DNA from: Sistotremastrum niveocremeum HHB9708
Taxonomy: Eukaryota; Basidiomycota; Agaricomycetes; Sistotremastrales; Sistotremastraceae
DNA length: 64,000 nt
NCBI GenBank assembly: GCA_001630475.1
Contig: KV419424.1
Location: 64,931-128,930, forward strand
Direction of reading: 5' to 3'
This document shows, one piece after another, positions 40,087 through 53,887 of this stretch. A program made the position numbers and the translations under genes. The notes beneath the pieces are model-generated. The model was given only the letters and a program-made list of their open reading frames with translations, was not told the origin of the DNA and did no database searches. Position 1 is the first letter of the stretch. Each line of letters begins with the position of its first letter.

Positions 40087-40087
40087 T

Positions 40088-40113
40088 TCCCGCTACTAGT
40101 ATTAGTCAGCGGG
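40088..40113 (+). promoter_or_regulatory. Helitron 5'-terminal hairpin
   Basis: CCCGCT pairs with AGCGGG and inner ACTA with TAGT, leaving one bulged C, in the first 26 bases of the element. The first 12 bases (TCCCGCTACTAG) recur as a perfect inverted copy at 52120-52131 near the 3' end. Likely to matter for recognition of the transposon end. Confidence 0.7.
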
Positions 40114-40325
40114 TCTGTGTGCACTGGGTCTTAAATGGTTCTCTTACAAACATGCCCAAACGTGATGGAATGTAGAGTTACTGTTTTAGGCAATTCGGAT
40201 ATCACAATCAAATAATGATGTCTGTTTGAAGTGCTTGGGCATCCGGATCTCGCGCCCCTGTTCCTAATGCAGTTCGGCGGTCTCAGATTTATAAGAACCT
40301 ATCGCGCAAATGTGGGCCATTCTCC

Positions 40326-43300
40326 ATGGATCCTCATGCCCCTTTGTCGTCTCACGCGTCGTCCTCGTCGTCTCCTGGGGTGTTAGTGCCCCAGGGGTCG
40401 CCTCAAGAGTTTGTCCCTAGTTATACCTTTGATTTATGTCCCCTTGACGAGTTGAGTATCGCGTCTTTGTGTGAGCGAGCTGATCGGCATGGCATCGTGG
40501 TGACCAATCGTCATCGCAAAAAACCTATCTGTGATGCTATAGTGGCACACATTTTGAACGGGCATTGCTTTGCTCATTATCATTCATCCCACGGTTGCCG
40601 TACGGTCATTGATTTTGTCTTGTGTGCCTTCGGCGGCAGACATGTAACGCGCGAGCATTTTACGTGTTATATCTTGTATCAATGTATGTACAAATTTCGT
40701 GCTTCAACATTTCCTCGCCTGTTTCAGTGCCTAGGATTGCCGTTGCCCCGCCTAGGCGGATTGCACGACTGTAGAGCAACCCTCTTGAACTACATTGCCC
40801 GGGTATGTCCTGCCCTGATCCGTGACAGCGATCGCGCACGGGTCTTCGCCTTCACGGTAGACAGCGATCCTGACCCAATCGTCACAGGCGAGTCTGCTGA
40901 GAGTTCGGAAATGGTTCCTGCTTCTGATGATTGGTTACGTGTGATGTCCCCGACAGAGAAGGACACCATCTTGGCAGGATTTCGTGAAGCTGTAAGCGCG
41001 GATGCTGTGCGGGAGTTCGTATGTGCGTCTTGTGGTGGATTGTATCTTGAAGCTCATAAGAACACAGAAATAGTGGACCGAAATTTCGTCGCACATTATG
41101 TGAAACCTGATACTGAGATTCCGTGTGTTGATAATACGGAAGCTGTTCTCGCGTCTTGCTATCTTTATAAAGAAGGACTGGTGCAGGTGCCAGGCCATTC
41201 CCCAATTGTCCACATGTGCAATGAATGTGTGCACTGCTACCGGAGGGGAAAAATCGCACCGTTGTCTATGGCAAATGGCCTGCTGTTGGGGGCAGTGCCA
41301 CAAGAGCTGCGAGATTTGACGATAGTTGAAGAAGCAATGATCGCTCGGTGCCGCGCAAAATCGTGGATTATCCATTTAAAAGAGGATGACGAGAGCTCCT
41401 CGTCGCCGGTGATGCAACGAGGGGTACGAGGAAACGTTATAATATTTCCTCAAAAACCAGACGCGTTGGCGGATATTTTGCCGCCGTCCGTCGAAGATAT
41501 CATTACACCTATATGTATTGTTTTCGTGGGTTCTTCAAAACCAACAAAAGAATGGTTAAAGGCAAAGGCCAAGCCATTGGTTGTTCGTCGCGAAAAGGTT
41601 CGTCGCGCATTAGAGTGGCTAAAATATCATAACATGTTGTATTCGCACATTCGGATCAATCACGCCTTGCTAAATACTCTGGAAGATGAACATATGTTTG
41701 ATTTTCACATAGAGCACCGCGCTGACACAGGGAGCGATTTAGATGTTTTGGTGTCACGATACGATGCTCAAGTTCCGGGACCGGACAATGCGGCTCCCAC
41801 ACCAAGCTCTGAATTGTTCGAGAAAGTTGTGATTACAGATGTGGATGGGAGAGCCTCCTTGAATGTCATGCGTGCGGCCGCTCTGCGGCACATGAAGCAA
41901 AAGGGCGGTGCATTTATCCAAATTCCGCACGAAGGCACTCCTTCGAACGAATTCTTTAATCCAGATCTGTTCCCAATGTTATATCCAACGTTATTTCCAT
42001 ATGGTACAGGGGGCTTTGAAGACGCATCGAGAGCCGCCACCGTTTCGTTTGATCGGCAAGTCAGGCATTATTGTGGGATGTTTGATCGTCGGTTTCAGCA
42101 ACATTTCTCGTTTCTGTTCATCGCCTTTAATATTATTCAGCGCCGGCGAGTTCTTTGGCATACAAAAATTAAAGTATCCAAGCCATCGTTCCAGAGGATT
42201 GCACGAGATATTGAAAGTGTGTCTCTTGAGACCATCGAGGCCGTGGCGAGCAAGTTATCCCACCAGGACTTTGTGCGGGCGTCTAATGACGATGAAAGAA
42301 AAGTCCTAAGATTGATGCGAGAAATTAAACTTGTCGTGTCTAACGTTCCTGGGTCATCTACAGCGAGAACAGCCATGAGAAACGAAACAAGAGCGCTCAT
42401 ATTGTCGCACGGTTTTCCTACCTTCTATGTTACCATTAATCCCGCTGATGTGTATCATCCTTTGATTAAAATATTGGCAGGCAGCCCTTTTGATATTGAT
42501 CAAGAAATTCCCGGAGAAATTATGAGCTATTGGGACCAAGCGACTTTGATTGCTCGAAATCCATTTGTTCCGGCGCGTTTTTTCAACATTTATATGAATG
42601 CGTTCATTCGCCATGTGCTTGGGGTGTCGCCGTCTTCCATTTCTGGTGGGGCCTTAGGAAAAGTGTCAGCTTATTACGGATGTGTTGAAGCCCAGGGACG
42701 GGGTTCTCTTCATTGTCATATGATGGTGTGGATAAAGGGTGCCCTCGATCCAAATGCGATACGTCGGCGAGTCACGGAACTTCACGATGAAGAATTCTGT
42801 CGAAAATTAATTGCTTATCTCGACAACAATATCTCAAACTTCGTACCACCATGCCCAATTGGCGAGCACCAACCGTCGGTACACACGTCTAGTCGTCCTC
42901 ATCCTTGCCAAACACTGGGACCGGCTCCTATCGCCCGTAATGCAGAAAGGACCATTGATTTAAATAAACTTGTTGTTGCCTGTCAAACACATCGTCACAA
43001 CCGCACTTGTTACAAATATTGGAAAGGCCCACCTGACCCAAAACAGTGTCGTTTTGACCTCGATCCCGATAACGTGCAACAAGAGAGTACAATCGATGAA
43101 GAAGGAAATGTGAATCTTCGGTGCATTGAGGGCATGATCAATAATTATAATGAAACGATATTAGAGTGCGTACGATGTAACATGGACATTAAATTCATAG
43201 CTTCCGGTCGAGACGCCAAAGCCATTATGTATTACATCACGGACTACGTGACGAAGTCGCCTCTGAGTACACATGCATCCTATGTCGCTTTGGAGACGGC

Positions 43301-46300
43301 TGTGAAGCATTTGAGGGAGGGCTCCCGTAGCGTTGATGCGACAAATGGTGCCGACAGGGAATCTAGAACCAAAGCGTCTTCGATCGTCCAACGCTGTGCA
43401 TTTTCAATCCTGGGCCAACAAGAATTATCTGCACAACAAGTTGCATCAGAATTGTTAAACTTAGATGATCATTTTACCTCTCACCAGTTCCGCCATTTAT
43501 TCTGGCTGCAAGGGAAATCGATAGTCGCATCACATCTTCGGTCACGGGATCCCACCAACCAGTCTGGCGTCCCGCCCAACGTAGCCCTAGCAAACGATGA
43601 TGACGATCTATACGTTTCTGACGATGGACCAGCCGGCCTTGGCGATATTCCCTCTTCTGAGACGGCTGAGGATGAGACTTCCGTGGATGTGGTGCTAGAC
43701 ATATCAAGAGATGGTCAGGTTTTTTACACGACAGGCCAATTGTCTGATTACCTGATGCGTGGAACAATGTTACAAGGGTTATGTTTATGGGATTTTGTTG
43801 CTCAAGTGGATAAAACAGCTATGAAGGATCGATTCGTGCCTCGTGACGTTGAGGAATGGGATGCGAATGTCGAGCGCTTCCTCGGAGATACGCATCATCC
43901 TCGTCCGGCCTGCCGTTTACAGCAGGAGCACCCTGACTACGAACGATCCGCGTTGTACCTTCGTAAGCCTAATAACAGATTTGTTCCAGTACCTATCGGC
44001 CCTGCTATTCCCCGTCGAGATTCGCCGGACGTCTATGAAGAATACTGTCAAATCACACTGTTACTATTTAAACCTTGGCGCCAACCTTCAGATCTTATTG
44101 GAGGCAATCAGTCCTTTGCAGAGGCATTTACTGAATTTTCTCGTTCATGCTCACCTCGCTTGCTAAAGATTATAGACAACATCCAACTTCTAAACGAATG
44201 TCGCCAAGCACGAAACGAGCACGTCGTGAGCTTCCGGACGGGTCAATCGTGTCGCAATCGGTTCATGCCTTCAGACCGTGAGATGCACGCCGACGACGGG
44301 GAAATGGTTAATGATATTGACGATGAGCAGAACGCGGATGAACTACAAGCCATCCTTGAAAGTGTGACCCGCTCTGCAGAACAAACCGAAGGCATTGATA
44401 ATTGTCTCTTGGAGCTAGAATTTGCAGGACTCGCAAGACCAGATTATCATCTCGACAATTTAACACTTCATCATTCCACGGATATACATGAAGGGCCGAT
44501 AAACTACGAAGCGATTTGGAACGATGAATATGCTCAGCGACAACGCGCCTACATCTCAAGCCTTGCGTTATCTGCAAATCCTTTCGAAACATCGCGCGCA
44601 CAGGTCAATCAAACCATAGCAGTCAGCACCCTCTCTTCAGCACGCGAAGCTACCAATAACACGCCTCATATAAATGTTGAAACACTCCCAAATATAGACC
44701 GAGAAATTTTGTTGTTGCTCGATAGTATTTCCACCCAATACACTCTTAATGCCCAACAGAAACTTGCGTTCAGAACTGTGTGCCTGCATAGCGTTTCTGG
44801 AGACGTTCCCCTTCGAATGTATCTCGGTGGGCCTGGAGGCACGGGAAAATCTAGAGTTATACAAGCATTATCCGAGTGGTTTTCTCGTAGGCAACAAAGT
44901 CGTCGACTGCGACTTGCATCTTACACTGGCGTAGCTGCGTCGAATATAGACGGCGCAACCCTTCATTCTGTCTTGATGCTCTCCCAACGCGCGTTTGGCG
45001 CTTCTGCCAAAAAAAATGCGACTGCCCAAATGATGACAGTCTGGGAAGGTGTCGACTACCTGTTAATAGACGAGGTATCAATGGTTGGATGCACAATGCT
45101 TTCGAACATTCACGACGCACTATGCGATGCAAAAGGATCCACGGAATTGTTCGGTGGAATGAGTGTTATATTTGCCGGCGATTTTGCACAGCTCCCTCCA
45201 GTTAGACAAAAGAAGCTCTTTTCACGACCGAACCAAACTTTACGTGCTGCTCAAAATCAATCGCAAATCGAAACCCAGGGTCATCTACTATGGTTATCAG
45301 TATACGCGTCTGTTCAACTTACCGAACCCATGCGTCAGTCTGGGTCCGAAAACGAATATTTCGTAGGTTTGCTGCAGCGACTTCGTTCTGGTTCCTGTAC
45401 AAACAGAGATATTGAAATTTTAAATTCTCGGCTCTTGAGCCGGGTTGCTCACACAGAAATGTTTAAGATAGATGATTGGGTGAATGCACCTATTATTGTC
45501 AGTAGCAACGCTCTAAAAGACGCACTTAATGTCGAATGCGCAAAAAGATTCGCAGACTCTCACCAAAAAGCGCTACAATATTACTACGCCCGGGATCGAT
45601 ATAAAGGACGTGATATTTCGGATGTCGCAATTCTTGAAGCATTGCGAAACCTAGATTCTGGTCAGTCGAAACATCGAATGGGAACATTGCCAATGGTAGA
45701 CGGCATGCCAGTCATGCTTACTCAGAACCTTGATGTAAACAACGGCGCTGTTAACGGTGCTAGAGGGACACTTGTCCATGTCAGGTACGAGATTGTGAAC
45801 AATGAACGTGTTGCAACGTCATGCGTTGTCCATATTCCATCATATACGGGGCCCACATTGCCGGGTTTAGAGCCGGGTCAAGTGGCTGTGACTTCAAATA
45901 CTGTTGACGTGCTGTTAACCCATCCTGTATCTCGTAGAAAGATAACCATTCGTCGGACTCAACTTCCTTTACTTCCATGCTTCGCCATGACAGTCCATAA
46001 AGCTCAAGGCCAAAGCATGGATCCCGTTATGGTAGATCTATCTCAATGTCGAGGCACGGAGGAGCCGTATACCATGATCTCACGAGCGCGATCTTTGGCA
46101 GGCCTAATAATTATTCGCCCTTTTAAGGCTAGTAAACTTCGCTGTCCGCCGTCCGAAGAATATCGCCTAGAACGAGATCGGCTAAATAAGCTCACACAAG
46201 TGACATATCAACAGCTACACACCTGCGAAGATACAGCCAGCTTGAATGCAGCGTTACAACTTCTCGAGCAACAACATTCCGAGTCTACCTCAAATCTATC

Positions 46301-46379
46301 CAACAAACGTCGAGCCACAACCGATCCAGATGGCCAACGACCTGCCCGCAGGCCACGGGCGAATGCCAACGTACCATGA
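40326..46379 (+). CDS. Helitron Rep-helicase (RepHel) transposase, single exon, 2017 aa
   Basis: Catalyses rolling-circle transposition: a HUH nuclease nicks and joins DNA, and a Pif1-type helicase unwinds. ATG 40326 lies 239 bp inside the left end. Order: a Cys-rich region (VCASCGGLYLEAH, MCNECVHCYRRGKIAP, residues about 230-320) before a DUF6570-like segment; the Helitron N domain (about 580-830) with the H-x-H metal motif LHCHMMVWIKG (His796, His798); the two-Tyr region MYYITDYVTKS (Tyr969/970 and Tyr974); and a long acidic linker. The SF1 helicase has Walker A GGPGGTGKS (1501-1509), Walker B LLIDE (Asp1582, Glu1583), and the late motifs MTVHKAQGQSM and YTMISRARSL. The C-terminus is basic. 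No stops or introns in 6 kb and all expected catalytic residues are present. Confidence 0.96.
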   Translation: MDPHAPLSSHASSSSSPGVLVPQGSPQEFVPSYTFDLCPLDELSIASLCERADRHGIVVTNRHRKKPICDAIVAHILNGHCFAHYHSSHGCRTVIDFVLCAFGGRHVTREHFTCYILYQCMYKFRASTFPRLFQCLGLPLPRLGGLHDCRATLLNYIARVCPALIRDSDRARVFAFTVDSDPDPIVTGESAESSEMVPASDDWLRVMSPTEKDTILAGFREAVSADAVREFVCASCGGLYLEAHKNTEIVDRNFVAHYVKPDTEIPCVDNTEAVLASCYLYKEGLVQVPGHSPIVHMCNECVHCYRRGKIAPLSMANGLLLGAVPQELRDLTIVEEAMIARCRAKSWIIHLKEDDESSSSPVMQRGVRGNVIIFPQKPDALADILPPSVEDIITPICIVFVGSSKPTKEWLKAKAKPLVVRREKVRRALEWLKYHNMLYSHIRINHALLNTLEDEHMFDFHIEHRADTGSDLDVLVSRYDAQVPGPDNAAPTPSSELFEKVVITDVDGRASLNVMRAAALRHMKQKGGAFIQIPHEGTPSNEFFNPDLFPMLYPTLFPYGTGGFEDASRAATVSFDRQVRHYCGMFDRRFQQHFSFLFIAFNIIQRRRVLWHTKIKVSKPSFQRIARDIESVSLETIEAVASKLSHQDFVRASNDDERKVLRLMREIKLVVSNVPGSSTARTAMRNETRALILSHGFPTFYVTINPADVYHPLIKILAGSPFDIDQEIPGEIMSYWDQATLIARNPFVPARFFNIYMNAFIRHVLGVSPSSISGGALGKVSAYYGCVEAQGRGSLHCHMMVWIKGALDPNAIRRRVTELHDEEFCRKLIAYLDNNISNFVPPCPIGEHQPSVHTSSRPHPCQTLGPAPIARNAERTIDLNKLVVACQTHRHNRTCYKYWKGPPDPKQCRFDLDPDNVQQESTIDEEGNVNLRCIEGMINNYNETILECVRCNMDIKFIASGRDAKAIMYYITDYVTKSPLSTHASYVALETAVKHLREGSRSVDATNGADRESRTKASSIVQRCAFSILGQQELSAQQVASELLNLDDHFTSHQFRHLFWLQGKSIVASHLRSRDPTNQSGVPPNVALANDDDDLYVSDDGPAGLGDIPSSETAEDETSVDVVLDISRDGQVFYTTGQLSDYLMRGTMLQGLCLWDFVAQVDKTAMKDRFVPRDVEEWDANVERFLGDTHHPRPACRLQQEHPDYERSALYLRKPNNRFVPVPIGPAIPRRDSPDVYEEYCQITLLLFKPWRQPSDLIGGNQSFAEAFTEFSRSCSPRLLKIIDNIQLLNECRQARNEHVVSFRTGQSCRNRFMPSDREMHADDGEMVNDIDDEQNADELQAILESVTRSAEQTEGIDNCLLELEFAGLARPDYHLDNLTLHHSTDIHEGPINYEAIWNDEYAQRQRAYISSLALSANPFETSRAQVNQTIAVSTLSSAREATNNTPHINVETLPNIDREILLLLDSISTQYTLNAQQKLAFRTVCLHSVSGDVPLRMYLGGPGGTGKSRVIQALSEWFSRRQQSRRLRLASYTGVAASNIDGATLHSVLMLSQRAFGASAKKNATAQMMTVWEGVDYLLIDEVSMVGCTMLSNIHDALCDAKGSTELFGGMSVIFAGDFAQLPPVRQKKLFSRPNQTLRAAQNQSQIETQGHLLWLSVYASVQLTEPMRQSGSENEYFVGLLQRLRSGSCTNRDIEILNSRLLSRVAHTEMFKIDDWVNAPIIVSSNALKDALNVECAKRFADSHQKALQYYYARDRYKGRDISDVAILEALRNLDSGQSKHRMGTLPMVDGMPVMLTQNLDVNNGAVNGARGTLVHVRYEIVNNERVATSCVVHIPSYTGPTLPGLEPGQVAVTSNTVDVLLTHPVSRRKITIRRTQLPLLPCFAMTVHKAQGQSMDPVMVDLSQCRGTEEPYTMISRARSLAGLIIIRPFKASKLRCPPSEEYRLERDRLNKLTQVTYQQLHTCEDTASLNAALQLLEQQHSESTSNLSNKRRATTDPDGQRPARRPRANANVP

Positions 46380-46724
46380 TGTCCAAGATCACGTTGCCTT
46401 CCGTATGTGGAGCACAAATGACCATATAAGACATACACTTAATGCCCCTTTTGTCAGATGCCATGGCATTCTCTGAAAAGGTAACCAGATCAGTCACCGG
46501 GTCATTTCTTACTCATCGAAAATGCTCGGCCTCCTAACTAGCTTGAGGCCTCGATCGTTAATCATCTTGGATCCCTTTCATCCACCCCAAGTGGGAAGGG
46601 GTCGACGACGGCCATGACCGACAGTTCCGGATATCCGACTGTGCCTGATTCTGTGCCTATGGCCTGTGCGGCGACGAATTGCTAACTTAAGCCTTACGCT
46701 CTCGCCAACAGTGTCTCACCCACC
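46380..46724. other. Intergenic region inside Helitron
   Basis: 345 bp between the RepHel stop and the next ATG. It should contain the RepHel 3' end and the promoter of the downstream gene. The ATG at 46725 is in a good context (caccATGG). Confidence 0.45.
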
Positions 46725-48240
46725 ATGGCTCCTTCCACTCGTACCTCCAAACTTTCGTCCACATCCACCTCCCATCAACCTACCGTGCCCGCTACGATGG
46801 ACGTCGATCTCGATCTCGATCTCGACCTGTCGGTTCCAGCGTTGGACGAACCTAACGTTGGCAGCGAGTCCAGCGTAGGCCCACCCACAGCAGGTCCCTC
46901 CACCGACCAGCATGGCCCACCCACCCCTCCTCCACCGGATTGCGACTGGAACATCTCTGGAAGCCCGGCCTCCAAGTACGGTCCTCCTGCCGACAACTTC
47001 AAGTGCAACGGTCATTACCGTGACGACCTCTTCGAAGCTGCGTTGGACGAAATCCTGAAGACCAGCTCGACTCCCAGCGCCGCCGATCCAGCTACCTTCG
47101 AGAAGTACAAGATGGTCCGACCTAACAAGTCTGGCAACGCAAAGGGGATTCTCGATGATGGCACGGCCATTGAGCGTGCATCGGAATTCCTTTTCAACGT
47201 CGCTGGGGAGATCGGGTACAAGAACCAAGGTGTGGCGTTGGGCCCAATGGGTACCCACGGGCTTGATGAAATCGTGAGTAATACATTGAATATCATCCTG
47301 ATTTGCAACACGCTAATACGTACCTAGATCGATTCGAAACGCTTCCCGAAGGGCAGGATTGTCCTGAACGAAGCCAGCCTCCCCGTCCTGTGCAACGACC
47401 AGGCCTCGGAAATTCATGCCGTCGTTGTCAAGGCAGAGAGCCAGTTCCGCGATGAAGACCAACCTCATCTCCCCCCACTAACGGAAGAGGGACGCGATGA
47501 GTACTTCATTGAACGTGTAAACAAGGTATGGTCTTATTACCTTCGCCCGACTGCATTAACCGTCCATACAGAACATTGTCGGGCATTGTCTTCGTCGTAA
47601 AGACCGCCTATTCTCAGGTATCGAGCTCTCGACGGACGCGATACTGGGTTTCCCAACAGGAACAAGATCCGGGGGCTTAGTGTCTTCCGCACACGCCGGA
47701 GGACATGGTGGTCAAGAGCCAGAGACGGCTGCTACCGGTTCGTGTTTGTTCCCAATTGTCACTAGTCAGCACTGACGTCGCATAGCCCGACTCAGCCTGA
47801 ACAGAACGTATCCACTCTCGTACTGGCCACAGATCGAGGGCAAACGATTTAACTTCACGTCTAACACTCGTATCCTACAACTTCCGTTCTACGACACGCA
47901 GGGCAACCTCATCGCGCCGTGGGATATGGCGCGCGTTCTGCGTCCAGGAACGGTCATCGTCGCGCGATGCGCTCTTGTTATGTGGAACTTCAGGAACCAA
48001 AAGGTACGTGATCGTATACTTCTTCCGCATCGCACTTCATTCACAACAATCCAGCCTCTTCACAAATATCAGCTCAAGATTCGAAAACTACGCGTTTACG
48101 ATTATTCATTGGAAGAAGCTGAAAATCATTCCCCCCCAACATTTATTGTACCATCCCCCTCTGTGGTCGTTGAAGACGCCCCTGCTAGCGACTCCGAAGT
48201 CGACGAGAGACCGGCTAAGCGTCGCAGGATCCAAAATTAA
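46725..48240 (+). CDS. Helitron-borne protein of unknown function, 438 aa, possible OB-fold-like C-terminus
   Basis: Five exons: 46725-47273, 47328-47525, 47572-47737, 47786-48003 and 48055-48240, all with GT-AG introns of 46-54 nt; the total is 1317 nt, in frame. The N-terminus is low-complexity (DVDLDLDLDLSVPALDEPN). A middle domain follows (FKCNGHYRDDLFEAALDEIL, KGILDDGTAIERASEFLFNV). The C-terminal domain is beta-rich: RILQLPFYDTQGNLIAPWDM, ARVLRPGTVIVARCALVMWN, then KYQLKIRKLRVYDYS. It ends with a nuclear-signal-like KRRRIQN. The alternating hydrophobic strands and a W-N-F strand recall an OB-fold, so a single-strand DNA-binding partner for RepHel is possible. This is inference: no signature I know proves it. 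It could equally be a captured host gene. Confidence 0.8.
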
Positions 48241-48511
48241 TCGCGTTAAGGAATCGTTCGGCCCCGCCATCGTCTTTGTACTTGTATCTCGGTTACGTTT
48301 TCTTTCTTTCTGCTTCTCTTTTCGGCCTTGAAAAACTCACAAAAAAATGTAAAAGGGCTTTGCCGTCTAAAGTACAAAAAAATCTCATGTATCAGTGTAT
48401 TCCTTCGATAGCAAATGTATTTTTATATTTATTATTTCGCGGCCCCATCATAACTGGCGACTGTTTGTTCCAACCAAATCACCTCTTATCACCCGACAAC
48501 AACCGTGTTTC

Positions 48512-49423
48512 ATGGCTACCCATCACTTACTTGCACTCGAAATCTTAACTCATCATGACATACTTCCCTACATCTGGCGACATCTGGATCTACACAGTTG
48601 GTGCCGCCTGAACAGCGTCAACCGCAATGTGCGACAAGCCTCCCTTGATTGCCTCCATTCTGCTATTCTCGTTCAGCTCGCGAGACATCTTCCTGCGTGT
48701 GGAACCGATCCTTTTCTACAGCTCATCCGAGCCGCAGGTGCGTTTGTTGCAGGCCCTCACATCGCAGCTCTTATTGCCCAGGAGAAACCTTATCCGCTAG
48801 GCCTCACAATATTCGTTCCTTCCGGCAACGTCCAACCACTTCTGCATCACCTCATACAAAACGAGGCTTTTGTTTGCTATGACTCGTGCTCAACCACCCG
48901 TTTCTTTACCCACACTTACTCAGTCGGCCTTAAAAGCGATCCCTTTATTCGTTCGCACCATCGTTTTCATGCCCACAGCGGCTTTCGTCACCATTATTAT
49001 AACCAACAAATCATCGAAATAATCGAAAGCCGCAATCGCCACGCCATCTTCCCTCTGACGAACAAGTCTTCAACCCATCTCATGAACGGATACGACGGCT
49101 ATGCCCTCTATTCCCTCTATCCTAAATGGCTGACCGATAAGCACACAGTCAGACAGCTAAGACGAAACCGCTACCTCGGCTATATGTATCCCCACCCACT
49201 CTCTCCTCCAACCTCTCGATTTGAAGATAAGTCGTTTCATTTTTCGAGGATATGTTCCCCGTTGTCGTGCCCGAATGCCCAACGCTCACTCACAGACCGT
49301 CATGTACTTCGAATCCCCCTCACCGCCGCCGAAGGCCCGATGGATCTGGATTACGAATGGAAACTCAAGATCCGGAGCTCTTGCACTCGGCCGGAATGCA
49401 AACCTCGCCGTGCCCGAAATTAA
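48512..49423 (+). CDS. Helitron cargo protein 1: F-box-like + nucleotidyltransferase-like, motif lost
   Basis: Single exon, ATG 48512 (MATHHLLALEILTHHDILPY) to TAA at 49421, 303 aa. The N-terminal about 45 residues look like an F-box helix pair (ILPYIWRHLDLHSWCRLNSV). The following core aligns with cargo proteins 2 and 3, but where they have GS and x-L-D this one has AGPHIAA and PLGLTIFVP, so the acidic residues of a nucleotidyltransferase are absent. The C-terminus has Cys pairs (ICSPLSCPN, then CTRPECKP). Probably a non-catalytic member or a binding protein. It is followed after only 80 bp by the next gene. An upstream in-frame extension to 48395 is AT-rich and unlikely. Confidence 0.75.
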   Translation: MATHHLLALEILTHHDILPYIWRHLDLHSWCRLNSVNRNVRQASLDCLHSAILVQLARHLPACGTDPFLQLIRAAGAFVAGPHIAALIAQEKPYPLGLTIFVPSGNVQPLLHHLIQNEAFVCYDSCSTTRFFTHTYSVGLKSDPFIRSHHRFHAHSGFRHHYYNQQIIEIIESRNRHAIFPLTNKSSTHLMNGYDGYALYSLYPKWLTDKHTVRQLRRNRYLGYMYPHPLSPPTSRFEDKSFHFSRICSPLSCPNAQRSLTDRHVLRIPLTAAEGPMDLDYEWKLKIRSSCTRPECKPRRARN

Positions 49424-49503
49424 GGAGTGAGAGTGCATTTCGTGCCCCGTTGGAACCGGAAAGTCTCTCGGAACTGGCTCCACTCCTCAAACCTCACATT
49501 CAC

Positions 49504-50777
49504 ATGTCAAACTACTTCGTCTTTTCCTTCGGACTCGCTTCTCCTCCCTCATCCCCAATGGCTCTCAACGCGCGGACTACCCTGCTGTATTCTACCGACG
49601 TTCTCTTCCAGTTCTTGCCCTTTCGCGAACTGATGATCTTGTCCTCGTTCTCCATCAACTTGAAACACCGAATTCAGATTTTCTTGTTAACCCGTTTCCG
49701 AACGACTTTCAACAACTTTATTGGCGACTTCGACAATTTTCGAACGTTCTGGCGAACTCAGAACATACTATTATCCGGCTCTGCCGTCCTTCATTTTATT
49801 TCTCAGGATACAAACTGGTATCCTCATGATCTCGATTTTATTGTTGGACGTGGAAACAGCGATCCTCTGTTGGAACAGCTTCGTGTTCGCGGATTCACCG
49901 CTTATCGAAAACTGTTTAACAAAGGGCCGTTTTTTGCCGCTACGCAGTATTTGCTTTCACATAACATTTATGCAGTTCACCGTCTCACTCACACCGATGC
50001 AGGTCACGTCCCCCAAACATTCGATATCATTGAAAGCACGTTAAGCGATCCAATTGAGACCCTCATCTTTTTTCATTCTACGCAAGTCATGAATTTCATG
50101 ACCGCAGATGCGCTCACCATTTTGTATCCAGACCTCACTCTTGAACACATGGGGATTGTACGAGATGATGATCGGGACATTACTCACTTGGTACAGAAGT
50201 ATGAGGAAAGGGGGTTCGAGATATTTTATTCGGTAAGCACACTTTATCGCAATCAACGCGCGATTCTCAATCGCCCTCATTAGGCTTCGGACTTCAAGAC
50301 AACATACTCAGCCTGTCCGTTGCTATTGCGATGCGTTGGAGATAACCAAACGCTGTACTACGAATTTCAAGGCACCTCAAGCAACGAACACGGGTTACAC
50401 TATCCTACCATGCTACCTCACATCTGGCATTTTTGGCAGCTACTCGAATGCTCGTACCCTTTCTGTCGCAACTGCAGTTTTCGAAACATGAAAGCACTCA
50501 TGGTATGATTTTACGTGCCTCTTAACACTCATTCTAATGTTTTAGGACAGAGATCACTCTCCTTTCGAAGCCCCAGCCTGCTCGAATATCTCCAATTCCG
50601 TTTTTCACGACTTGCACCCACCCCCGGCATTCCGTGCGTAGCTTCGTTTTAACTCACAAAACTACGCTAACCACCGACTCAGATGCCAGTTCTAAGACCA
50701 TGCTCAGCACGACAGCTTCCTGCCCTTCATTCACGTCCACGATCGCCTGCGTTTCACAGCATACGATACTCTTGTGA
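49504..50777 (+). CDS. Helitron cargo protein 2: F-box-like + nucleotidyltransferase-like with intact GS..DxD motif
   Basis: ATG 49504 (MSNYFVFSFGLASPPSSPMA). An F-box-like stretch (DVLFQFLPFRELMILSSFSI) leads to the core: ILLSGSAVLHFISQDTNWYP, then HDLDFIVGRG, with Gly92-Ser93 and Asp109-x-Asp111 spaced as in the nucleotidyltransferase superfamily. Later blocks are FDIIES, IFFHSTQVMNFMTADALTIL and YPDLTLEHMGIV. The intron at 50233-50283 leads to a second exon with SACPLLLRCVGDNQTLYYEF and a CSYPFCRNCSF Cys cluster. One or two further short introns give a modelled stop at 50775-50777; this 3' end is less certain. I recall an expanded mushroom protein family with the HST..MN phrase, but no known function. 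Confidence 0.72.
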
Positions 50778-50988
50778 ACTCATGCTCTCATATCTTACTA
50801 CAATCTCGTGTATGAACACCGTCGAATTTCAAATTTATAACATGTACCTTACGGAAAATTCCGATCACCATTCTTCTCATCTCCGACCGATCTAATCTCT
50901 CGCTGGTCTCGCATTTTCGCGACACTCGCTAGCATATCATGTGTTATAACTGACCAGTGCGGTGAGTGTCTCACTTTCAACGACCATC

Positions 50989-51944
50989 ATGCCCACCGAC
51001 CCCCTAGCAGCCTATACTGCGAACGACGACGTAAACACCATCCGTCGTTCTCTGTTCACCTTCATCCCAGTATGGATCCTATTTGTACTCACTGAGGCTT
51101 GTCCACACACCATCCCAAACGTCCAAAACCTTTTCATGCTGCGCTACTTATCTATCCTCGGCATCTACTTTAACGATCCCAGCGACTTCCGCCGCTTTAT
51201 GCGCACCCACCACATCCTTGTTACAGGATCAGTCGCCCTCCATCTTTGGAACGGCGACCACCTCTGGTTTCCACCGAATCTGGACCTTCTCTGTACCATT
51301 CACTCCTTTCCCTTCCTCCATCAGTATCTTCTCGACAACGATTACCACGCCTCACTCGGACCCATCCCGAACCCCCTCTCGCGCTACGTCCACACACATC
51401 CCTCTACAACTGAACTGACCCCATATGTCCGCGCCAATAGTGACGGCTCCAGTTCCACAATCCATATCCTCTGCTCAACCACCGACAACCCTGTCACACC
51501 GATATTCGACTTCCACTCTACCATCACGATGAACTATGTTACCGCCGATACCATAGTATCATTGTATCCTTCGTTGACGGAGGCCCACCGTGGGATTTTT
51601 CAAAATCTCAACGTCCGCCGAGAGTGTGAAAGCGAGTTGGACAACGAGATGCGAAAATATAACAAGCGCGGTTATTCCTTGTATACTCACGTACGCAACC
51701 TTGATCATAAACAACTGTTACCTGGATGCTAATTTCTTGCTAGGCGCCTCCTCACACATACTGCGACATACTCTGTCCAAACATCGTGCGATGTGTTGGG
51801 GACACATACACTTCCTACATGCACTTCAACAACAGCACAGCGATAACCCCCGCTCAAACGCTCAGCTTCCACCGAACTTGGTCGTTAAATACATGGGGCC
51901 CGTGTGGCAACCCCACGCGTCGACTTCAAGCGCAGCCGTACTAA
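50989..51944 (+). CDS. Helitron cargo protein 3: F-box-like + nucleotidyltransferase-like with altered motif
   Basis: Two exons: ATG 50989 (MPTDPLAAYTANDDVNTIRR) to a donor at about 51691 (gtacgc), then from about 51744 (GAPPHTYCDILCPNIVRCVG) to TAA at 51942. The core shows HILVTGSVALHLWNGDHLWF, then PPNLDLLC: Gly80-Ser81 are kept but the first acidic residue is Asn97, leaving only Asp99. The shared phrase IFDFHSTITMNYVTADTIVS and YPSLTEAHRGIF matches cargo protein 2, as does CPNIVRCVGDTYTSYMHF in exon 2. Likely a divergent paralogue with weak or no catalysis. It is the last gene before the Helitron 3' end, 216 bp away. Confidence 0.75.
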
Positions 51945-52119
51945 CAATATCACAAAACTCAAGCTGTAGCAATGTATTTGTATTGGTCCCTGTATTTTTT
52001 TTTCCATGTATTTGTACTACTTGTGCAGCCTGTGAACGTAATGAAATATCTTGGCTTCTTTACTGTAATGATCATGGAGTCACATCGTGGATGTCGACCT
52101 CAACCACCAATCATGACAA

Positions 52120-52131
52120 CTAGTAGCGGGA
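52120..52131 (+). repeat. Subterminal inverted copy of the Helitron 5' end
   Basis: CTAGTAGCGGGA is the exact reverse complement of the first 12 bases from 40088 (TCCCGCTACTAG). It lies 29 bp inside the 3' end, so the inverted repeats are asymmetric relative to the termini, a feature described for Helentron-like elements. Confidence 0.75.
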
Positions 52132-52134
52132 CTT

Positions 52135-52160
52135 GCAGCGCGGGGGCTGCGTTTACCTAA
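52135..52160 (+). terminator. Helitron 3' hairpin and CTAA terminus
   Basis: GCAGC-GCGGGG-GCTGC (stem 52135-52139 / 52146-52150), spacer GTTTAC, then CTAA, followed by host T. This is the textbook Helitron 3' end arrangement, believed to stop rolling-circle transfer. Confidence 0.85.
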
Positions 52161-52432: not shown

Positions 52433-53887
52433 TCATCTACCACGACCCAAAATAAAGACCTGAGAGGCCCGGCTTTGGCATAGTGCCGATAGCGTTTTCC
52501 AATCAGAGTCCGAAACCAGATTTCCATCTTCGATTTCGACATGAAGTTCTGACAGGAGAGGGAGGTGGGTCTGTGAGCAATAGATGACTCCCGCGACCGC
52601 TACGATGCTACCAGAGACGCAAAGCTTCTCTATAGATTTGTATGATGCGAAAACGTATTGCCAGAGTATGGAATGATCGATCATTTGGAGAGGAGAATCG
52701 TGTTGTGGAGGACCCGAGTACAGGTTATTGTTTATGATCAACTCCCTGGGTTCAGCAAATAGCTGGTTTGGCAGGATTGTGAGAAGAGTCTCGAACGTGG
52801 CAAGGTAACGGTCGTTTCTATCATACTCGAACCATCCGAATGCAGGGCGCAATCCAATCGAGTACGTGTACGACGGTACCCCGTCGGCAGTGATGTAGAT
52901 CTGGTCGGGATTAAGCTCGAAACGGACTGCGGCGGGTGTGATGAGATGTGTGGGAATGCATGGAAATTCGCCCCACATGAGGCGGGAAATGATCCAAGTG
53001 TCATCCCCTAATGACGCCTTCTCGTGAATAGCCAAGTCTTCAAGACTCGGGAAATCGATGATAGAGAGGAAGTGATGGAGGGATTCTGAATCCAAATTTT
53101 TGAAGTAGAGCGCTTTGCATGATGGGAGCGAGATTCTTTCAGCCGGAATTTCGGGTGGTCGGGAAGAACAGTCTTCAACATAGCCGATCAAAGACAATTC
53201 TTCGATATTGGTCAAGTTGGTCAACATCTTTGCGACCCGTGGAAGATGTTGAGGCAGTAACCTCAACCGTAAGACTCGGATGTTAAGGAGGTCTTCCAAA
53301 TCGAATGGGAGAGGAGAGGAGATATACACTGAGGTGAGATTCGGTGCGTTTCCTAAGAAGAGGTATGGTCCAAGTAGTTCGACCTTGGCTCCCAAAGCTA
53401 AAGCGAGCGATTGCAAAATCGGAGCAGGCAAGTAAAGTGTCTCGGCCAGCTCAGGGCTGCACTGCTTGTTCGAGATGCACAAGTCCAAGTGCTTAATTAC
53501 ACACATGTTGGTTCGTAGGAAATCGGCCCATCGCTTCTGTTTCAGTTTACGTTTTTTGGTGCCTGCCTCCATGGTCTTCAAGAAAACTGAAAGAGGGCCG
53601 CCTCCAGAGCGCAGCAGATACAGTTCCACGATCTCCGCGGGCCATTGGAGGTGGATTGTCGACCATAGATCCTGGCAAGAGGGAGAGAGTACTCGTTCGC
53701 GAAACAAATGATCACTAGGCAAAGATATGAGTTGGTCGACGCAAATAGAAAATCAAACTCTATACATTTGTGCGAGGACAAGAGTGTGCGCTAGTCTTTT
53801 CTGGGCCGTCACAGTCTCCGCTGGATCTGACATGTAGTGCTTGATAACCTCGAGAAACAGCTCGTGGGGCAATGCATTGAAACACAT
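52433..53887 (-). CDS. F-box protein, right duplicon (intact)
   Basis: A fungal F-box protein, probably a substrate adaptor of an SCF ubiquitin ligase. ATG 53887 starts MCFNALPHELFLEVIKHYMS, an N-terminal F-box. The first exon ends LVLAQMY. An intron (about 53709-53760) joins it to DHLFRERVLSPSCQDLWSTI, then HLQWPAEIVELYLLRSGGGP. The rest is one long exon with irregular leucine-rich strands (LAETLYLPAPILQSLALALG, then LFLGNAPNLTSVYISSPLPF, VLRLRLLPQHLPRVAKMLTN) to TGA at 52433-52435. About 470 residues. A degraded twin lies at 33010-34250. Members of this large mushroom family differ greatly; the target is unknown. Confidence 0.85.

Follow-up and report, generated by a model that had tools for sequence, protein, structure and literature searches.

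We analysed a window of 64,000 nucleotides (contig C31:64931-128930, KV419424.1) in the 34.7-Mb genome of the basidiomycete Sistotremastrum niveocremeum HHB9708. Both the introns and the kind of Helitron in it are consistent with such a fungus. The window contains a Helitron2-like transposon that carries three adjacent genes, here called P1, P2 and P3, whose products resemble nucleotidyltransferases (NTases). The coordinates of these genes and of the element around them are as follows.

48512..49423, plus strand: P1, single exon, 303 amino acids; apparent NTase-like pseudo-enzyme (GP, GLT, E).
49504..50652, plus strand: P2, exons 49504-50232, 50284-50502 and 50551-50652, about 349 amino acids; complete signature (GS, DLD, D).
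50989..51944, plus strand: P3, exons 50989-51690 and 51744-51944, 300 amino acids; apparent pseudo-enzyme (GS, NLD, H).
40087..52160, plus strand: Helitron2-like element, 12,074 bp, 5' TTCCCGC...CTAA 3', flanked by host A and host T; ends common to the elements on contigs C26 and C22.
40326..46379, plus strand: RepHel transposase, intact open reading frame of 2,017 amino acids from the first Met, recognised from Pfam domains and motifs.
46725..48240, plus strand: G0, intron-containing gene between RepHel and P1.

Three related genes within one Helitron

The initial annotation had placed three related, same-strand genes inside a Helitron, and this description was borne out. P1, P2 and P3 are intact within 48512-51944, and the mapped ends at 40087-52160 enclose all of them, which rules out the possibility that they lie outside the element. 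P2 and P3 match each other with E values of 5.5e-20 and 6.4e-20; P1 is linked to P2 by a weaker tblastn match (6.5e-5) and by the family alignment. The genes are also whole and, in two cases, probably spliced, as had been proposed: exon structures inferred from sequence give three exons for P2, two for P3 and one for P1. The last exon of P2 was picked by means of a peptide conserved in the C26 copy; its final few residues are uncertain, and one further intron may be present.

NTases of the Pol-beta-like superfamily share the pattern hG[GS], followed by hDhDh and then by a third acidic position. P2 has all of these elements (G-S, D-D and D). The corresponding residues are G-S, N-D and H in P3 and G-P, G-T and E in P1, and neither protein has the full set of catalytic acids. 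The graded loss of the motif reported initially is therefore exact, and P2 is the only one of the three that looks active from its residues, with apparently inactive paralogues next to it. In an alignment of ten family members, 8 columns do not vary; among them are two residue pairs, M-N and Y-P, that follow downstream of the catalytic region. A Cys-rich tail had also been suggested; what the alignment supports is a few conserved cysteines, two of them in nearly invariant columns (C236 and C281, alignment numbering).

Recurrence and conservation in other elements of the genome

Do other Helitrons carry the same genes? We used as the RepHel set of the genome the 14 loci with a Helitron_like_N domain. 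All counts of recurrence come from this one genome, and those from genome searches are lower bounds. The element on C26 (13.8 kb) has the order RepHel-G0-P1-P2-P1', with a second P1-like gene (P1') where the C31 element has P3; between the two elements, RepHel is 59% identical over 2,042 aligned columns and P2 is 61-62% identical. On C22, 28.3 kb lie between matching 5' and 3' ends and are presumed to form one element. The terminal portion of a P3 gene adjoins its 3' end, with exons that are 72% and 69% identical to those of the C31 P3. Inside this Helitron, 18.8 kb (C22:251131-269911) read N, and P1 and P2 genes could lie there.

Two further elements have RepHel in the opposite orientation.

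C1:763911-774027, RepHel antisense to the termini: C1 element, 10.1 kb; 5' ATTACCATGTGCTTGCACTGGT, hairpin then CTAG 3'.
C87:10595-19214, RepHel antisense to the termini: C87 element, 8.6 kb; 5' ATTACCATGTGCTTGCACTGGT, hairpin then CTAG 3'.

The ends of these elements differ from the C31-type ends and likewise have inverted repeats. Each element carries one P3-type NTase-like gene, which is sense to the termini; no other gene was found between it and the 3' end. A 5' end of the same type, with one mismatch, occurs at C36:244386.

In the C31 element, the three genes lie immediately upstream of the 3' terminus, and genes of their family recur in other elements of the genome. The ends of five RepHel-bearing elements are mapped (C31, C26, C22, C1 and C87), and in each of them the final NTase gene is in the sense orientation, with its stop 151-392 bp short of the 3' terminus. 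Weaker relatives (E 3e-6 to 7e-4) stand beside RepHel on C98, C13 and C6, where the element ends are unmapped, and this brings the family to 8 of the 14 Helitron_like_N loci; we found no relative at the other six (C16, C39, C27, C3, C63 and C5). At seven of nine NTase loci, a Helitron_like_N domain is present no more than 20 kb away. The C22 locus is 21.6 kb away but between the same ends, and the C48 locus has none, as there is no Helitron_like_N match on that contig. If transposon clustering is ignored, the chance of 7/9 by random placement is ∼1e-11, or ∼6e-10 for 6/8 without the window locus. The C48 locus (C48:95266-102785, minus strand) consists of five tandem NTase relatives and is possibly a host gene cluster.

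The initial annotation had asked for the same triplet in the same order elsewhere and regarded its absence from every related Helitron as the mark of a one-off capture. Related genes do recur in the C26, C22, C1 and C87 elements, which disfavours a one-off capture, and RepHel-G0-P1-P2 is repeated in C26; the triplet itself is not identical between elements, with P1' rather than P3 in C26.

We then compared conservation of the genes with that of the transposase. Between C31 and C26, 218 codons of P2 (exon 1) gave a proportion of silent differences (pS) of 0.877, a proportion of replacement differences (pN) of 0.283 and a replacement distance (dN) of 0.355; the 1,987 codons of RepHel gave a pS of 0.813 and a dN of 0.359. 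P2 and RepHel are therefore equally well conserved. For P3, the two exons compared between C31 and C22 gave pS values of 0.83 and 0.74 and pN values of 0.15 and 0.17, and RepHel of the same pair has a dN of 0.40. P1 evolves faster (dN ∼0.65-0.71) and has kept its open frame at 35-36% identity. The ratio of silent to replacement changes suggested as a check could be followed this far, but since silent sites are saturated, exact ratios cannot be stated. In a crude simulation in which 97% of bases were randomised, identity fell to ∼6% and stops appeared in 500 of 500 trials, compared with the 61% identity observed for P2.

A family tree of 13 members (without the fifth C48 relative and the relatives on C98, C13 and C6) resolved a P1 clade of three genes (support 100/100), a P2 clade of two and a group of three C48 genes; a fourth C48 gene forms a long branch of unsure placement. 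The C31 P3 and the C22 piece group with the C1 and C87 genes (support 98/97). The motif is missing from all three P1-clade genes, and Asn takes the place of the first Asp in three of the four P3-clade members (C31 P3, C87 and C1, the last with NLN); the C22 piece does not include this part of the gene. Both P2 genes and two C48 genes have the full set of acids, and a third C48 gene has DID with the third Asp. Because the losses extend across the P1 clade and most of the P3 clade, they look old and inherited rather than the product of decay after one recent capture. Divergence after capture, which had been offered as an explanation, thus has the wrong time scale. In a tree of the Helitron_like_N domain from 11 of the 14 loci (C27, C5 and C13 left out), which has several long branches, NTase-bearing and NTase-free loci did not form two groups (3 changes, compared with a shuffled mean of 3.5).

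A candidate nucleotidyltransferase module and its possible role

Structure prediction had been proposed as the check on the NTase assignment. For both of the AlphaFold models obtained, the top Foldseek match was MenT1 (for one of them with E 4.4e-4 and probability 0.99), NTases were the majority among the matches listed, and the structural re-alignments were led by ANT(2'')-Ia and tRNA nucleotidyltransferases. The PADLOC AbiEii profile matched one of ten family members with an E value of 0.008. The family members searched gave no Pfam or NCBIfam match to AbiEii/MenT and no above-threshold profile match to them, and a sequence-profile search of PDB gave no match. Bacterial, archaeal and viral contig collections contained no relatives of P1 (viral collections only) or of the P2 pair, a result of little weight, as fungi are not in these collections. 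The pattern of the MenT/AbiEii family includes GS...DxD. The P1-P3 family is like these NTases in this signature and in its top fold match, but it has no above-threshold sequence relationship to them and is eukaryotic, intron-bearing and located in a transposon. From the models, an NTase fold for P2 is supported but not proven. That the signature is kept in the C26 P2 is, as judged from the two sequences, stronger evidence than the motif in the window P2 by itself.

The best explanation of these data is that P1, P2 and P3 form a resident accessory module of a Helitron2-like lineage, with an NTase fold; we put the probability of this reading at roughly 0.7. We favour a resident module over a one-off capture because of the gene order shared with C26, the matching dN of P2 and RepHel, the position at the 3' end and the relatives at 8 of 14 loci. 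Several observations weigh against the reading. The models are of low confidence (pLDDT, the predicted local distance difference test, of 44 and 56), sequence-profile searches of the family gave nothing above cut-off, and a loose form of the signature arises in 60 of 20,000 shuffles of P2. The 3'-end position also fits with simple acquisition by read-through on the 3' side, which is discussed for capA and capB of Pleurotus ostreatus in the available portion of PMC4289320; position alone is therefore no proof of a role in transposition.

If P2 is a Pol-beta-like superfamily NTase, it would add a nucleotide to the 3' end of a nucleic acid, and P1 and P3 would be pseudo-enzyme partners that bind the substrate or P2 in a hetero-complex. 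Such a complex would most likely serve the element, either through work on the free 3' ends and hairpin termini that arise in rolling-circle transposition or through modification of a host RNA that leads the host to tolerate the element. We propose this specific role, with P2 as the catalytic subunit and P1 and P3 as its partners on nucleic-acid 3' ends, only tentatively. The broader idea that an entire group of fungal Helitrons uses an element-encoded NTase complex of one catalytic and at least two pseudo-enzyme subunits in rolling-circle transposition, at 3' ends or at the terminal hairpin, is more doubtful. One observation that would follow from work in transposition is that the NTase genes stay by the 3' terminus even where RepHel is inverted.

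Catalysis might instead be secondary. An F-box-like N-terminus and a ligand-binding NTase-like domain could together act as a host-directed adaptor that brings in host factors such as silencing proteins to be degraded, and many dead copies would then be expected. The initial annotation had described an F-box-like start in all three proteins. P1, P2 and P3 gave no F-box match, and what remains of this claim is a sub-threshold hint in paralogues near the N-terminus: an F-box-like E value of 0.0057 in a C26 paralogue (16.8 bits against a cut-off of 24.3) and F-box profile E values of 0.056 and 0.073 in two paralogues. Host-directed adaptors would have company in the TET/JBP dioxygenases of fungal Helitrons (PMC12730594) and the deubiquitinase domains of animal Helentrons (PMC9741609), as these are described in the accessible parts of both sources, but with all F-box matches below cut-off we consider adaptors unlikely.

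The MenT1 matches of both models and the AbiEii match could also point to an addiction or killer module, in which P2 would be a tRNA-modifying toxin of the MenT/AbiEii kind, P1 and/or P3 would be its antidotes and nuclei that lose the Helitron would suffer. The neighbouring dead paralogues could serve as immunity partners. However, the link to MenT exists at the level of fold only, and genes with all acids also occur in the tandem cluster on C48, away from any Helitron_like_N match. Moreover, C26 has no P3, and the only NTase-like gene found in C1 and in C87 is degenerate, which is a poor fit to a required toxin. An addiction module is, in our estimate, rather improbable.

The genes could also belong to a conserved accessory family of Helitrons that lacks NTase identity and acquired its motif by convergence; this would account for the low model confidence, for the empty sequence-profile searches and for the appearance of the loose signature in shuffles. 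The three catalytic positions are, on the other hand, jointly kept in both P2 copies and in two C48 genes, and NTase-rich fold matches came from two models, so that we regard convergence as improbable. Helitrons are known for gene capture and relatives are clustered on C48, but that the genes are mere passengers, host family members captured once or several times and carried without benefit, is the least probable explanation, given P2 conservation equal to that of RepHel, the repetition of gene order and 3'-end position in separate elements and the presence of P3-type genes in two element types with unrelated termini.

Accounts of Helitron cargo often speak of captured fragments. The set described here is a multi-gene one that is inherited with the transposase, with one member as strongly conserved as RepHel; its position at the 3' terminus is the same in elements whose ends are unrelated and whose RepHel genes point in opposite directions, and it appears to combine one intact catalytic site with conserved dead paralogues. 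Whether Helitrons supply helper enzymes of their own, either for transposition or for coexistence with the host, thereby becomes a testable question. A literature search at title and abstract level, with subscription literature mostly outside its coverage, returned no report of Helitron-carried NTases. Accessory enzymes borne by Helitrons are nevertheless a known kind: as far as they are described in PMC12730594 and PMC9741609, the TET/JBP and deubiquitinase elements likewise carry their own accessory enzyme, but of another class and without a set of paralogues that has one active-looking member. According to the consulted sections of PMC4289320, the HELPO1 Helitrons of P. ostreatus carry, downstream of RepHel, the genes capA, capA2 and capB, which are expressed but of unknown function. 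Matches to capB occur in five further basidiomycetes, four of which have RepHel in the same orientation, and no conserved domain was found in capA, capA2, capB or capC. Compared by description only, these elements resemble ours as basidiomycete Helitrons with genes downstream of RepHel, and differ in having a RepHel of ∼1,400 amino acids rather than the 2,017 of the C31 element.

Termini, transposase and neighbouring sequence

The extent of the C31 element (12,074 bp, 40087-52160) rests on the ends that it has in common with the C26 and C22 elements, namely TTCCCGCTACT at the 5' end and, at the 3' end, TAGTAGCGGG or AGTAGCGGG followed by a hairpin and CTAA.

40089..40113, plus strand: 5' terminal hairpin with one arm of the asymmetric terminal inverted repeat (TCCCGCTACTAGT), recognised from its fold and the 13-bp repeat.
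52119..52160, plus strand: 3' terminus, with inverted repeat ACTAGTAGCGGGA, hairpin at 52135-52150 and CTAA end.

The inverted repeat of 13 bp links the two ends, and the 5' hairpin has a DNA fold of -8.3 kcal/mol (z -5.1 against shuffles). The hairpin at the 3' end is present, with a single-strand fold energy no better than that of shuffles (z 0.4). Because of the inverted repeat and the strong 5' hairpin, the element fits Helitron2 as characterised in the available text of PMC5148889. FoHeli elements of Fusarium, according to the same text, also have asymmetric terminal inverted repeats and terminal hairpins, and in some subgroups open reading frames inverted relative to the termini; that text differs in mentioning no NTase-like genes. 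The RepHel of the C31 element contains DUF6570, Helitron_like_N (HUH motif LHCHMMVW and the Tyr motif YYITDYVTK) and a PIF1 helicase of superfamily 1 with Walker A and B motifs. At the insertion site, host A precedes and T follows the element; A/T and T/T sites read alike, since the element starts with T. G0 had no Pfam match, and its matches in the genome are on C31 and C26 only. Just beyond the 3' end and outside the element, a long open reading frame (52433-53752, minus strand) resembles by eye an F-box/leucine-rich host gene.

Ends of the same kind also bound short non-autonomous copies. In the 3' ends on C23, C34 and C71, one stem pair is swapped from A-T to T-A with the stem kept, and the 3'-end stretch from this group folds better than that of C31 (z -2.7). 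Two 590-bp copies (C71:19803-20392 and C23:419190-418601), aligned over 594 bp, show 99.8% identity and have different flanks; such ends have therefore moved recently. A third short non-autonomous copy, on C34, is 71% identical.
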